Of a stretch of DNA of 33,351 nucleotides, positions 5,322 to 10,059 are shown one piece after another; position 1 is the stretch's first letter; every line of letters begins with the position of its first letter. A model generated the notes under the pieces. It was not told where the DNA came from. It ran no database searches and was given only the letters and a program-made list of their open reading frames with translations. Made by a program: the position numbers and the translations under genes. This stretch comes from Bacteroidales bacterium (GTDB lineage: Bacteria > Bacteroidota > Bacteroidia > Bacteroidales > P3), in assembly GCA_017530105.1 (NCBI GenBank), contig JAFXMW010000057.1, forward strand, positions 1-33,351, in the 5' to 3' direction.

Positions 5322-7712
5322 TTATTTTTTGATTAGTTTAGCGGTTTGTGTGCCGGCTTTGAGGAGGTAGATTCCTTGGGGCAGGGAGGAGATGTCGATG
5401 AGGGTTTCGCCGTGTCGGGACGGTTGGCTGAGGATTTGCCGTCCGGTCATGTCGAGGATTTGGATGGTCGTGCCGTCGGGGGTGCTGACGGTGATGTGGC
5501 TGGAAGCGGGGTTGGGGTGGACGGCGAGTATGTCGGCTGTGGGCTGGGATATGCCTACAGGGTAGTTGCTTTCGTAGCATCCGAGGTCGATTTTGCCGTT
5601 GCGGCAACGTACTTCTTGGTTCATGTCGCCGTCGCGGATACATTCCAGTACGCGTTCTCCGGCATCGATGCAGACGGAACCTTTTGCCAGTTGCCAGTTG
5701 TAGTCGGGGCTGTCGGAGGTGAGTGAGACGCCGCGGGTGGTGGCAGGGAGGATAAAGGCGGGGCCGTCGGGTGCATTGTTGTCGTGGCTGAGGAGGAGGC
5801 AGGTGGAGTCGCCGAGGGCGGTGTCGCTGTCGAAGGCGCAGTAGCGGACGGAGGTGTCGTTAAGGTCGGTGTTGAGCCGGAGGGTGGTGTCGTTGTTCCA
5901 GACTATGGTGTTGATGAGGCTTGAGCCACGGCTTTGGAACACTACGGCTGTGCCGGTGTTGGATACGATGTCGCAGTTGACAATGCGTCCATGGGAGAGG
6001 ATGGCGACATCGCCGTTATTGTTGTTGAGGAGGCTTTGGCGCATGATGGCTTCGTTGAGGAAGCAGATTTGCGGTGCGTTGTTGTTTTCGATGCGGAAGC
6101 ATCGGGCGAGGCCGTCGTTGATGTATAGCACCTGTCCGCTGTCGCTGGTGCAGTTGCGTATGGTGAGTTTCAGTGCTTTGATGCTGTTGGAGAGTTTGAT
6201 GCATGGGTCGTTGGTGGAATGGCCGTTTTGCAGGATGAGGTCGTTGAGGGAGAGGGTGCCGTTGTAGGTGTTGCAGGAAGCGTCGACGAGGCAGCGGACC
6301 CCTTTGCCGTCGATGATGGTGGGGTGCAGGTCGGGGTTGCGTTGCGAGACTTGTGTTTCGGTGCCTTCGAAACCTCCATAGATGGAGGCGTTGCCTGAGA
6401 GGGTGTAGGCATATTGTTGTGTGGTGTCGCCGTAGTAGAGGCCTTCTTTCATCCAGATGCTTTTGTTGGCGTATTTATTGAGTTTCACGGCAGCGTTGAG
6501 GTCGTTGTTGGCATTTTCCCATGAGGTGCCGTCGCCGTGGCCGTCGGGGGAGACGAGGAATTGCTGCAGGTGTCCGTCCCATCCCGAGGGTTTGATGTTG
6601 ATGACCATGTCTTGCGAGGCGGTGAAGCCTTGCATTGTGGTGAGGGTGTAGAAGCCGTCGCAGTAGCCGCCCCATCCCCAGTTGAAATGGTATTGGTCGT
6701 TGTTGTTGTAGCCGTCGAGGACAAAGGCATGGCCTCCTTCTTCGTTCACGCCGGAGTATTCGATGGGTCGGAGGTTATCGATTTCGGTTCGGATGAGGGC
6801 TTTCCAGGCGGAGTCGCTGATGTTGTTGTCGCGGACGTAGAGTATGGCGTCGGTGTAGCCGAAGTGCATCAGTCCTTCGGGTATGCGCGAGGTTTGGCTT
6901 CCGCTGCCCGAGGTGTGGGAGGGGTTTTGGTAGTTCATGTTTACCACAACACCGCAATGGTAGCAGAGTCGGGACACCATGTCTTTTTCTGCCGCGGAGG
7001 AGCTGCGGCGTATGCGGTCGGGCATGAGGGAGTAGTCGTATTCGGTGGTGTCGAAATCCACGGATTGTGTGCCGTAGGAGCTGTGGTTATAGGTCTTTTT
7101 GCCGAAGCCGCGCGAGGGGGATTGGTGGTAGCGTATTATCTGAGCCATGGCAGTGGCCACACATCCCACCACTACGTGCTGGCCGTTCATCACGGGGCAG
7201 TAGTTGTTGTAGCCGGAGCCTTGCTCCCATGTGGAGGTGAGGAGGTAGCTGTCGCGTTTGGGTTCGTCGTTCCCTTCGGGGGTCTGCAGCAGCCTTTTCC
7301 ATTGGACCAGGTGGTCGGGGTTTTCGGGGGCGTTGGCTTCGATGGCAAGACGTATCTCACGGGCGTAGCCGTCAAGCCACACTTGCATGTTGGCAGGCAG
7401 TTTGCCGAGGTTGAAGCTCCCGTTTGTCGAGTATCCGAGAATGGGGGTGCAGCGGTCGTCGGCTCCCACGATGACGAAACTTTCCTCACCGTTGTTGAAC
7501 ACGTAGAAACAACCCTCGTAAGGGTTGGTCTTTTCTGGAGAATAGAGGGTGAGGGTTTCGCCTTGTTTGAGCAGGCCTTTCTTCTGCAGGAAATGGGTGC
7601 CTGCGAGAAGGGCGGTGTGTTTTTCGACGGGCTTGGAGTGTGCTGGGATGCACGGGAGAATGAGCCCGGCAAGGATGACGAGGCTTGTTAAAATCTTGTT
7701 GCGGTGTTTCAT
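5322..7712 (-). CDS. C10 family (streptopain-like) cysteine protease with beta-helix region and T9SS type A sorting tail
   Basis: 796 residues from the ATG at 7712; a start at 7718 adds two. The longer frame to 7754 overlaps the promoter box and is rejected. A signal peptide (MKHRNKILTSLVILAGLILP..AHS) is followed by a Spi-like propeptide (about 20-150) and a C10 catalytic domain with Cys184 in VVGCVATAMAQI, His328 in EGGHAFVLDGY and the FNWGWGG motif. The 144-residue Cys-His spacing is close to streptopain's. Residues about 385-690 have a repetitive beta-helix-like pattern (SIWMKEGLYYG, ASIYGGFEGTE, CIDAGE). The last about 70 residues are a Por secretion tail (HPNPASSHITV, ILDMTGRQIL, LPQGIYLLKA), predicting export by T9SS and surface attachment or release. 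It is a secreted degradative enzyme; substrate unknown. All visible catalytic residues are intact. Confidence 0.88.
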   Translation of the reverse strand: MKHRNKILTSLVILAGLILPCIPAHSKPVEKHTALLAGTHFLQKKGLLKQGETLTLYSPEKTNPYEGCFYVFNNGEESFVIVGADDRCTPILGYSTNGSFNLGKLPANMQVWLDGYAREIRLAIEANAPENPDHLVQWKRLLQTPEGNDEPKRDSYLLTSTWEQGSGYNNYCPVMNGQHVVVGCVATAMAQIIRYHQSPSRGFGKKTYNHSSYGTQSVDFDTTEYDYSLMPDRIRRSSSAAEKDMVSRLCYHCGVVVNMNYQNPSHTSGSGSQTSRIPEGLMHFGYTDAILYVRDNNISDSAWKALIRTEIDNLRPIEYSGVNEEGGHAFVLDGYNNNDQYHFNWGWGGYCDGFYTLTTMQGFTASQDMVINIKPSGWDGHLQQFLVSPDGHGDGTSWENANNDLNAAVKLNKYANKSIWMKEGLYYGDTTQQYAYTLSGNASIYGGFEGTETQVSQRNPDLHPTIIDGKGVRCLVDASCNTYNGTLSLNDLILQNGHSTNDPCIKLSNSIKALKLTIRNCTSDSGQVLYINDGLARCFRIENNNAPQICFLNEAIMRQSLLNNNNGDVAILSHGRIVNCDIVSNTGTAVVFQSRGSSLINTIVWNNDTTLRLNTDLNDTSVRYCAFDSDTALGDSTCLLLSHDNNAPDGPAFILPATTRGVSLTSDSPDYNWQLAKGSVCIDAGERVLECIRDGDMNQEVRCRNGKIDLGCYESNYPVGISQPTADILAVHPNPASSHITVSTPDGTTIQILDMTGRQILSQPSRHGETLIDISSLPQGIYLLKAGTQTAKLIKK

Positions 7713-7743
7713 TTGCATTGAAAGGATATATTTTTTTAAACTG

Positions 7744-7751
7744 CAAAAATA
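7744..7751 (-). promoter_or_regulatory. -7 promoter box for the C10 protease
   Basis: The minus strand reads TATTTTTG, 25-31 nt before the two likely start codons. Its position inside the longer open frame rules out the upstream start at 7754. Confidence 0.6.
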
Positions 7752-7901
7752 CACAAAAAAAATGATTCATTGATTTTTTGTCCTAAAAATATATGGGACA
7801 AGTGGTATGTGGTTGGTGGCGGGGAGGTGGAGATGCCTTTCTATGGGGATGGAAATTGTCTTTTTTTTCGTAAGTTATGCGGTGGTCTCGTTTATTTTGT
7901 G

Positions 7902-8414: not shown

Positions 8415-8433
8415 TTGTATTGAGGGAAAAACG

Positions 8434-8469
8434 AGGGAGCGTCCCACAATTTGTTGCGGAACGCTCCCT
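8434..8469. terminator. Bidirectional terminator hairpin between ybaK and the anti-sigma-like gene
   Basis: AGGGAGCGT (8434-8442) pairs with ACGCTCCCT (8461-8469) around an 18-nt loop. On the minus strand the stem is followed by CGTTTTTCCC, so termination is stronger leftward. The convergent genes on both sides end here. Confidence 0.7.
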
Positions 8470-8491
8470 TAATATCATTCAATAGTGTACG

Positions 8492-9379
8492 TTATCGTAT
8501 CAGGGTGACGGTGCCTTTGCGTTGGTGGCGCACTTGGTCGCTGTCGGTGTAGTTGATGATGTAGATGTAAGCCGATTGGGGCAGGGGGCGACCTTTGAAC
8601 GAACCGTCCCAGTGTTGGTTGATGTTGTCGGAATAGAACACTTGTTGTCCGCCGCGGTTGAAGATGACTATGCGGTAGTTCGAGATGCTGTTGCTGGCAT
8701 GGTTGAGAACCACGTGGAAGGTTCTGATGTCAGGGTCGTCGGCGTTGGGGGCAAAGGCATTGGGTATCCACAGGATGGTGTCATCGAGGGGAGAATTGTA
8801 TGATGATTTCACCTCGTTGCGAGGGGTCTCGGCTGTTGCTATAGGCTCGATTGGCTTTAGGACGGTTTTTTCATTATTGTCGGCAGCCGTCGAAGTTGTT
8901 GGCGCCGGGGCTTTTATGGCTGTGGTGGTGTTTTCAGCTTTGGCTGTGGATGTTGGCTTTACCGCGGTGGCCTGTTGCGTGATTGGAAGCACGCTTGTTG
9001 TGGCTTTCATTGTGTCGGGAGCAGGGGTATTGGTGGCAGGCACGCTGATGCTCTTTTGCTGAGGGATGGGCTTGGGAGCAACGGCAGGTGCCGGGGCGGG
9101 GGCAGGCATGGCGTCAGGTTCGGCGACAGCGGGCTGAGCGGGGGTGGCAGCAGGAGTGGTCATGGCCACATCGGGAAGGGTTTGTGTCGGGGTTGATGCT
9201 GTTTCGGTTATCGTATTACGGTTGACGGCAATGACAACAATGACGGCTGCAACGGCCATGGCTCCGGTGGCAATAGCGGCTGTACGTCGCAGTAGTGAGC
9301 GGCGATGCAGGGTCTTTTCTATCTTTTCCCAAACTTTGGGGTCGGGTTGTGTCGAATAGTTTTTTAAATCGTTGTTCAT
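8492..9379 (-). CDS. Membrane protein with anti-sigma-like N-terminus and T9SS type B (gliding-type) C-terminal domain
   Basis: 295 residues. Residues 1-30 are a short soluble segment with DPKVWEKIEKTLHRRSLLRR, the 'W..i' pattern seen at the cytoplasmic N-terminus of Bacteroidota anti-sigma-like proteins. Residues 33-52 form one membrane helix, with no cleavable signal. Residues 53-195 are an Ala/Pro/Thr-rich linker. Residues about 199-295 match the type B CTD: IPNAFAPN, YRIVIFNRGGQQVFYS, HWDGSFKGRPLPQSAYIY and the terminal KGTVTLIR. The usual NRWG is NRGG here. It starts 2 nt after the sigma factor stop, so the two are cotranscribed. I infer an anti-sigma or sensor role, with a type B domain in the periplasm attached to the inner membrane; this has not been shown. 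Alternatively it may be a structural envelope protein. Confidence 0.75.
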   Translation of the reverse strand: MNNDLKNYSTQPDPKVWEKIEKTLHRRSLLRRTAAIATGAMAVAAVIVVIAVNRNTITETASTPTQTLPDVAMTTPAATPAQPAVAEPDAMPAPAPAPAVAPKPIPQQKSISVPATNTPAPDTMKATTSVLPITQQATAVKPTSTAKAENTTTAIKAPAPTTSTAADNNEKTVLKPIEPIATAETPRNEVKSSYNSPLDDTILWIPNAFAPNADDPDIRTFHVVLNHASNSISNYRIVIFNRGGQQVFYSDNINQHWDGSFKGRPLPQSAYIYIINYTDSDQVRHQRKGTVTLIR

Positions 9380-9381
9380 AA

Positions 9382-9936
9382 TTACTGTATTCTTTTTTCC
9401 AGTTTCTTTCTTAAATAGCGGCGTGCTCGCAAAAGGATGCTGCGTATCGTTGATTCCCGCATTTTCATTATACGGGCAATCTCAGGATAGTCAATTTCCT
9501 CTACATCGTGCATGTTGAATACCTTTTGGTATTGTTCGGGCATGCTTTGGATGGCGTTGACTATTTGTTCCATCGATATTCCTTTGGTCCTGTCATCCCA
9601 GCCGTTTTCCTCCTCTTCCTCCTGGGGGATAGTCTCCTCGATAAGGTTAAGGTCGGTGTAGATGATGGTGCGTCGGCGCGAGAGATAGTTGATAGACTGA
9701 CTTATCATCACTTGTCGCATCCATGTCTCCAGCGACTGGGGCTTTTTGAGCTTGCCTATGTTTTCAAAGATCTTGATGAAACCGTCGTGGAGCAGGTCCT
9801 GAGCCTCGTCGCGCGAGTGGGTGTATCTCATGCACAATCCCATCAGTGTCGGCGCATACTGGTCGTAAAGCTGTTTTTGTGCTTTCGGGTCTTTGCGCGC
9901 ACAAGCCTCCACTAATTGTTCCACTTCGGTGTTCAT
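9382..9936 (-). CDS. ECF-type RNA polymerase sigma factor
   Basis: 184 residues from the ATG at 9936 (MNTEVEQLVEACARKD). Region 2 is clear: QLYDQYAPTLMGLCMRYTHS, DEAQDLLHDGFIKIFENI and WMRQVMISQSINYLSRRR. After an acidic linker (PQEEEEENGW) comes region 4: MPEQYQKVFNMHDVEEIDYP, IARIMKMRESTIRSILLRARRYLRKKL, with the helix-turn-helix that reads the -35 element. A GTG at 9951 would add five residues, but it overlaps the -10 of an ECF-like promoter, so the ATG is preferred. It directs RNA polymerase to an unknown regulon. It forms a two-gene operon with the membrane protein 2 nt downstream, the normal sigma/anti-sigma arrangement. Confidence 0.92.
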   Translation of the reverse strand: MNTEVEQLVEACARKDPKAQKQLYDQYAPTLMGLCMRYTHSRDEAQDLLHDGFIKIFENIGKLKKPQSLETWMRQVMISQSINYLSRRRTIIYTDLNLIEETIPQEEEEENGWDDRTKGISMEQIVNAIQSMPEQYQKVFNMHDVEEIDYPEIARIMKMRESTIRSILLRARRYLRKKLEKRIQ

Positions 9937-9946
9937 ACGCTTTAAT

Positions 9947-9972
9947 GACACATACCCCTCTGTTTTGTTGCA
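9947..9972 (-). promoter_or_regulatory. Probable autoregulated ECF promoter
   Basis: On the minus strand, TGCAAC (9972-9967) and TGTC (9950-9947) are separated by exactly 16 nt. This fits the ECF pattern of a -35 with AAC and a -10 with GTC. It differs from the housekeeping TAnnTTTG form used elsewhere here. Transcription would begin a few nt before the ATG at 9936. Confidence 0.55.
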
Positions 9973-10059
9973 GTTATTTAACTTTTTTTATGAATTTTCT
10001 GTCGGGGTTTATTGATATTACTGTCTTTTCTTTGGTTTACAGTATTATTGTTCAATACC

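Follow-up and report, generated by a model that had tools for sequence, protein, structure and literature searches.

Operon layout and protein architecture

The DNA analysed here (hereafter the window) is a 33,351-nucleotide stretch from a Bacteroidales bacterium (contig JAFXMW010000057.1, assembly GCA_017530105.1) that carries, on its minus strand, a gene for an extracytoplasmic function (ECF) sigma factor followed, after two bases (9380-9381), by the gene for a 295-aa partner protein ending in a type B sorting domain of the type IX secretion system (T9SS; Table 1). A sigma factor and a membrane protein 2 nt apart were the starting point of the original prediction for this locus, and this spacing is confirmed. 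The sigma factor consists of regions 2 and 4 only, as in ECF sigma factors (50.9 and 52.6 bits for the Pfam models Sigma70_r2 and r4_2, respectively), and among the 25 of 91 NCBIfam models listed it passes the broad ECF model only. A longer open reading frame (ORF) beginning at an in-frame GTG (9382-9951, minus strand) is possible, but the ATG at 9936 is the likelier start, because relatives start there and the GTG lies inside a promoter-like motif (see below). At the other end of the operon, the terminator region (8415-8500) has a predicted folding energy of -34.7 kcal/mol (z -8.9).

Table 1. Features of the sigma factor operon and of its partner protein (positions in the window).
Feature	Position	Strand	Basis
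Promoter-like motif GTTAA-N5-TGCAACAA-N15-GTC before the sigma gene	9947..9982	-	
ECF sigma factor, 184 aa	9382..9936	-	Sigma70_r2 and r4_2 over cut-off; start aligned to relatives
Putative anti-sigma factor, 295 aa, with tether and T9SS type B C-terminal domain	8492..9379	-	
Residues 1-33, cytoplasmic segment NYxxQPDPxVWExI, presumed sigma-binding	9281..9379	-	Barrel-partner profile, 29.8 bits
Residues 34-52, single transmembrane helix	9224..9280	-	Mean Kyte-Doolittle (KD) hydropathy 2.62; helix in model
Residues 53-203, disordered Pro/Ala/Thr-rich linker	8771..9223	-	Hydropathy layout and model; poorly conserved in alignment
Residues 204-295, T9SS type B C-terminal (CHU_C) domain, last residues KGTVTLIR	8495..8770	-	
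Intrinsic terminator, end of the two-gene operon	8434..8469	-	16-pair stem

The partner begins with a basic segment of 33 residues (net charge +4). The short cytoplasmic N-terminus and single helix that had been proposed for it are both recovered, at residues 1-33 and 34-52 by hydropathy, and a helix (residues 14-53) is also present in the AlphaFold2 model (22 sequences). The linker had been put at 140 residues: a long, low-complexity linker is indeed there (83% P/A/T/S/Q/N/E/K/D/G), although hydropathy makes it 150 residues long, and its pLDDT is mostly around 50, reaching at most 71 in one block. By contrast, the last part of the model (residues 201-295) is a beta-sandwich of pLDDT 94-98, and its assignment as a type B domain holds in two libraries (PF13585 CHU_C, 52.2 bits with a cut-off of 27; TIGR04131 T9SS type B, 47.6 bits with a cut-off of 35). 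CHU_C was the only Pfam match of the partner, the scan yielding neither a beta-barrel nor a FecR domain. In structure comparison, the C-terminal fold resembles solved T9SS substrate domains in SprA complexes, and the matches also include many non-T9SS Ig domains. A PDB sequence search with alignment A4 returned mainly PKD, FlgD and C5a-peptidase chains (top match 9lrk_A, E 2.9e-6, in its PKD part), the T9SS substrate NucA domain (8glk_D) being a weak match (E 0.11), and a search of PHROGs gave no match. The closest relative of the domain within the window's genome shares 45% identity and sits on an ORF without a start. Judging from the basic N-terminus, the hydropathy layout and the likeness to the N-termini of related membrane partners (see below), the protein appears to have no clear cleavable signal peptide; V-I-A at residues 49-51 is a possible cleavage site.

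Conservation of the pair

Profile and single-sequence searches of the family and order genomes recovered, among the loci examined, a sigma gene directly upstream of 39 T9SS-domain ORFs, which correspond to 38 distinct loci in the window's order (L035 and L141 being the same locus); some loci were chosen for a short ORF or a full-length match, so that these counts are not to be taken as frequencies. A pair was confirmed in at least 32 of 61 family genomes, spread over 6 of 12 genera. Since the adjacency is conserved, the pair is not a product of chance, and close relatives keep both the extreme C-terminal position of the domain and its KGTVTLIR-like end.

The N-terminal segment was compared with that of barrel-type partners, i.e., the partners of related sigma factors that end in an outer-membrane beta-barrel. 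A profile built from the latter scored the window's segment (Table 1) well above the best shuffled decoy (11.5 bits) and the best unrelated protein (4.0 bits), and matched 36 of the 39 T9SS-domain ORFs with an upstream sigma gene. Among the T9SS-domain ORFs without an upstream sigma gene and with a visible N-terminus, it matched none of 23 (19 of them with at least 300 nt of upstream sequence, own-genome cargo included; 28 further ORFs were left out of this control as their N-terminus lay beyond the locus end). These results bear on the simplest alternative, namely that the partner is ordinary T9SS cargo, with a long and cleaved signal peptide, that lies beside a sigma gene by coincidence. Its C-terminal domain is the same as that of cargo, and the V-I-A site could serve for cleavage; however, the 38 conserved pairs, the homology of the N-terminus to barrel-type partners and the lack of this segment in every control ORF make such a coincidence very improbable, and on the conservation and N-terminal homology we rejected the partner as plain cargo. 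The sigma/anti-sigma pairing put forward in the original prediction is, on the same two grounds, well supported.

Exchange of outer ends within a wider sigma family

To cover the Bacteroidota more widely, named genomes were scanned with 14 pair sigmas, and the best 80 of at least 514 confirmed relatives were retained as a panel (two of its loci, L066 and L101, are contigs of the family loci L017 and L032). All but one of these loci (L083) have a next ORF downstream. One such ORF encodes an ordinary secreted protein (L129, dropped from the tree below), and a hydrophobic stretch over threshold is found in all of the 78 remaining partners except L137. Overall, 21 of the 79 panel partners carry a type B domain according to a local profile, so that the search for the pair across Bacteroidota, which had been suggested as a check, came out positive. 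One carrier of such a pair is in culture, namely Fluviicola chungangensis MAH-3 (L128). Among the 80 proteins scanned with Pfam (the window's partner and these 79), CHU_C was matched in 22, OMP_b-brl_2 in 33, OMP_b-brl in 23, PKD_4 in 9 and Por_Secre_tail in 2. Behind a similar front part there is thus an outer-membrane barrel in some partners and a T9SS sorting domain in others, once a type A-like one.

Profile comparisons in both directions show that the N-terminal segments of T9SS-type and barrel-type partners are homologous. With the barrel-built profile, 35 of 35 T9SS-type segments scored above the 99th percentile of both shuffled and unrelated sequences, and with the reverse profile, built from T9SS-type segments, 51 of 57 barrel-type segments exceeded that percentile of the shuffles (54 of 57 for unrelated sequences). 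In the partners of three Flavobacteriales loci (L064, L116 and L123), the cytoplasmic anti-sigma motif (resembling FxGHExxVDPxxWxxI) stands in tandem, in two or three copies. On a tree of the sigma factors (92 rows, built by a quick method), at least six changes between partner types are needed, two of them forced by starred branches; the partners grouped as "other" there include two short truncated ones (L071 and L098) and the type A-like L134. Two of the pair-bearing genomes, both with SprA, are metagenome-assembled genomes titled Chlorobiota (L103 and L140), a title or binning that may be wrong because their sigma factors sit among Bacteroidota rows on this tree.

Tether lengths are similar, with 117-171 residues in the 23 members that have clear boundaries and no PKD domain (L014, L016, L033 and L137, with spurious extra domain matches, and L140, with 21 residues, were left out of this range). 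Seven further partners (L068, L095, L097, L103, L120, L131 and L133) have PKD-like sequence between the helix and the T9SS domain, for a spacing of 250-281 residues. Locus L134 (4527-6158) encodes an anti-sigma-like partner with a PKD domain and a type A-like T9SS end (26.4 bits, cut-off 27), which suggests that the outer end can be of either sorting type.

A promoter-like motif and a predicted cargo regulon

The motif before the sigma gene belongs to a pattern, TGYARC...GTGTC, that recurs upstream of pair sigmas. A strict version (TGYARCAAN{13,14}GTGTC) had five matches in the window's genome and none for the reversed control: the window site itself, two sites before secreted-protein genes and two apparently due to chance. 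A second version including GTTAA was written after these matches, and is thus not independent of them in the window's genome, whereas the relatives provide independent evidence. In the window's genome it also had five matches (reversed control 0), one before the sigma operon and four before secreted proteins, of which two are complete genes with sorting domains and two are cut by contig ends. Across 26 genus genomes, 16 matches were obtained (reversed control 4), with 5 before a pair sigma gene, 8 before signal-peptide proteins (by inspection) and 3 fitting neither class (the start of an oxidoreductase-like gene, a site without an ORF of at least 100 aa within 400 nt, and a site 350 nt before another sigma gene). 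Genome G035, from the family search, adds its own sigma gene and a 934-aa cargo gene. Taken together, 9 of the 12 non-self matches in the genus precede secreted-protein genes.

In each of the seven complete targets, a sorting domain exceeds the curated cut-off in one library or more, sorting-domain genes making up about 1 in 20 genes of the genome (111 matches for an estimated 2,300 genes). Four are of type A by NCBIfam (L207 29.9, L208 31.8, L211 27.5 and L262 35.6 bits, cut-off 23), of which L207 alone passes the Pfam cut-off of 27 and L211 has no Pfam match. The other three are of type B by Pfam (L209 57.5, L188 34.5 and L261 53.5 bits, cut-off 27), L188 and L261 falling below the NCBIfam type B cut-off of 35. 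As L208 and L262 look like orthologues, these represent six kinds of target, and the two truncated targets share 65% identity with the type B targets L261 and L209. The -35 part of the motif co-varies by genome, with AACAA at 5 of 5 sites in G000 and AGCAA at 4 of 4 sites in G325 (Fisher p 0.008). At L261 (contig C3 of G035), two 934-aa type B cargo genes lie in tandem, with the motif before the downstream one only.

A second genus (g5), searched with its own version of the motif, gave 16 matches in 4 genomes (control 2). Two of them precede sigma genes, two anti-sigma genes and one a type B cargo gene (L229, CHU_C 48.2 bits, with an NCBIfam score of 23.7 below the cut-off). Two more each lie before copies of a gene for an outer-membrane barrel (L219 scanned, PF13568 65.7 bits) and of a gene for a secreted repeat protein that has no sorting domain at its C-terminus (L232), the remaining seven being without a clear target. 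L232 (1238 aa) was considered as cargo and rejected, its weak type A match (21.3 bits vs. a cut-off of 27) lying near the N-terminus. No chaperone or protease gene was noticed among the matches of either genus. In the window the motif stops 10 nt before the sigma ATG, and 10-11 nt separate the two in several genomes (L196, L201, L203 and L252), so that the sigma transcript may be nearly leaderless.

A proposed tethered anti-sigma factor that would couple cargo transcription to secretion

We consider it probable (at roughly two chances in three) that the partner is a tether anti-sigma factor similar to those of the Dma family and with a T9SS substrate signal at its outer end, and that it couples the transcription of T9SS cargo to the state of the T9SS or of the outer membrane. 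The sequence-level grounds for this are the architecture, the conservation of the pair, the exchange with barrels, the presence of SprA (see below) and the motif common to cargo genes. From these, we infer that the short cytoplasmic segment holds the sigma factor, and that the latter reads the motif, transcribing its own operon (which would thus be autoregulated) together with a limited number of type A and type B T9SS cargo genes. The anti-sigma factor would cross the inner membrane once and extend outward on its disordered tether, with the type B domain in the place of the Dma-type outer-membrane beta-barrel, where it is presumably recognised by the T9SS or by a PorP-like outer-membrane protein. 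Through this docking, the tether would most likely sense whether the outer membrane offers a free export route, so that cargo production would coincide with the ability to export it: engagement of the type B domain would release the sigma factor, through pulling or proteolysis, and expression of the operon and of a few cargo genes would rise.

The sign of this response separates the proposed coupling from a jam alarm, in which the domain would signal a blocked T9SS as stress and failed export would release the sigma factor. Envelope stress is served by many ECF sigma factors, yet every complete predicted target in the genus is cargo, extra cargo would aggravate a jam, and neither chaperones nor proteases were noticed among the matches. 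As the predicted regulon consists of cargo, we favour supply control, and an alarm appears improbable.

Several observations weigh against the proposed coupling. Within the genus, 19 of 26 genomes have no motif match, and across the 61 family genomes the reversed control yields more matches than the motif (25 vs. 19, 8 of the latter in the window's genus), so that the motif carries information only in genomes that keep it strongly (G000, G325, G322 and G035). The window's genome has 15 other type B ORFs, 13 of them with upstream sequence, and the motif stands before one; the window's domain itself shares only 33% identity with the type B target C53 of the same genome. All 22 genomes that were tested and have a T9SS-domain partner contain SprA (the test covered 50 of the 80 panel genomes), which is weak support as most other tested genomes have SprA too. 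The co-occurrence with sprA that had been suggested as a check is hence found, and is a poor discriminator. In the order, 187 of 198 genomes have SprA, and 10 of the 11 without it are not among the genomes with a partner-profile match; the other, G236 (82% complete), has such a match, the profile also responding to ordinary cargo. Nevertheless, the T9SS link of the original prediction is supported by the substrate-like fold and the predicted cargo regulon, with SprA adding weakly, and we regard its interpretation overall as partly supported. Neither the likeness to Dma nor the predicted regulon was part of that prediction.

The same data bear on the idea that the Ig-like domain is a periplasmic scaffold or ligand-binding module borrowed from cargo, in which the T9SS would play no part. 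Ig-like folds are common, many non-T9SS Ig domains appear among the structure matches, and PKD domains occur in 9 of the 80 scanned panel proteins. A free-standing module, on the other hand, would be at odds with the extreme C-terminal position and KGTVTLIR-like end kept in close relatives, with the type A-like end of L134 in its stead and with SprA in every one of the 22 tested genomes that have a T9SS-domain partner, and a borrowed fold is hardly a probable explanation.

Relation to known systems

The closest known systems, from the descriptions available, are Dma and the PorA-PorXY-SigP pathway. Dma anti-sigma factors, found in B. thetaiotaomicron, are described as an anti-sigma segment, a helix, a disordered tether and a beta-barrel (PMC13088901). 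Their partner sigma factors belong to group ECF21. The window's pair is alike in its adjacent ECF sigma, N-terminal segment, single helix, long tether and outer-membrane-directed C-terminal module. It differs, as far as these descriptions go, in ending in a T9SS type B domain where Dma ends in a beta-barrel, and in its predicted targets, which are T9SS cargo, whereas those reported for Dma1 and Dma2 are NigD1, polysaccharide utilisation locus (PUL) and other genes. Membership of Dma was rejected for the window's protein as it has no barrel, and we keep it as a Dma-like variant. The window's pair also suggests that the Dma layout works as a modular platform whose outer ends can be exchanged, so that Bacteroidota may have several classes of envelope-spanning anti-sigma factors.

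The main rival to the proposed coupling builds on the outer end as well. The T9SS type B proteins PG1035 and SprB, in which the type B domain (CHU_C / TIGR04131) lies at the very C-terminal end, as it does in the window's protein, are reported to bind PorP-like proteins, PG1035 being seen at the surface and its domain not cleaved off (PMC9143113). The type B domain of the window's protein might similarly leave through SprA and become anchored to a PorP-like protein; the anti-sigma factor would then span both membranes, as is described for Dma proteins, and sense an outside ligand or the envelope spacing, the T9SS merely placing the sensor. Three PorP-like genes in the window's genome, the similar tether lengths and the many related partners that end in an outer-membrane barrel, as in the Dma layout (PMC13088901), are consistent with this. 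However, in contrast with PG1035 and SprB as described, the window's protein has no clear cleavable signal peptide and has a cytoplasmic segment, a sigma partner and an inner-membrane anchor, so that its chain would have to stay threaded through the translocon or another pore, for which we found no precedent in the literature available to us; ligand sensing alone would also leave the cargo nature of the predicted targets unexplained. A surface sensor is thus unlikely, if less so than an alarm or a borrowed fold.

In the PorA-PorXY-SigP pathway of Porphyromonas gingivalis, input from a protein with a T9SS domain reaches a sigma factor in control of T9SS genes (PMC7712824). As described there, domain protein, sensor kinase and sigma factor are three distinct proteins, which regulate T9SS components, while in the window's pair the domain is built into the anti-sigma protein, with cargo as the predicted targets. 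Other sigma/anti-sigma pairs of Bacteroidales appear in the accessible part of PMC13114119, none of them of the window's kind. Overall, we came across no anti-sigma factor that bears a T9SS sorting domain in the portion of the literature at hand, though the founding Dma paper (PNAS 2024) might mention such variants.

In flagella, the anti-sigma factor FlgM of the sigma factor FliA is recognised as an export substrate, which couples late genes to export competence. The likeness to the window's pair is proposed for the logic only, and not for the sequences; the window's protein is membrane-anchored and its export system is the T9SS. We tentatively extend the comparison: the anti-sigma factor may itself be a tethered secretion substrate, whose domain is captured (and perhaps pulled) by a T9SS with a free route, releasing the sigma factor and turning cargo genes on. 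This would make it a T9SS counterpart of the flagellar checkpoint, used in several Bacteroidota lineages and evolved by swaps between barrel and sorting signal. To our knowledge, it is largely an open question how cells match the synthesis of T9SS cargo to its export; the PorA-PorXY-SigP route, as described, concerns T9SS components in one organism. With a single protein uniting a substrate signal and a transcription switch with predicted cargo targets, such coupling becomes directly testable.

Neighbouring genes and other sigma factor loci

The neighbours of the operon, a gene for an ABC-F ATPase and one for YbaK on the opposite strand, are apparently unrelated to it. The window also encodes (5322-7754, minus strand) a C10-family cysteine peptidase (Peptidase_C10, 204.5 bits) that also bears an I69 inhibitor domain and a T9SS domain of type A; neither the strict motif nor its GTTAA version matched before this gene. 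Elsewhere in the window's genome, L046 (1162-2838 on contig C70) encodes a 559-aa protein that joins an ECF sigma factor to a helix and a C-terminal part resembling a barrel, in which Pfam matched no barrel family, an arrangement that resembles the description of Dma3. The same genome has recurring cassettes (L048, L053, L056, L057, L042, L049 and L055; five of the small proteins without a Pfam match) in which a sigma gene is accompanied, in most cases, by a gene for a membrane protein, and by one for a small secreted protein of similar sequence.
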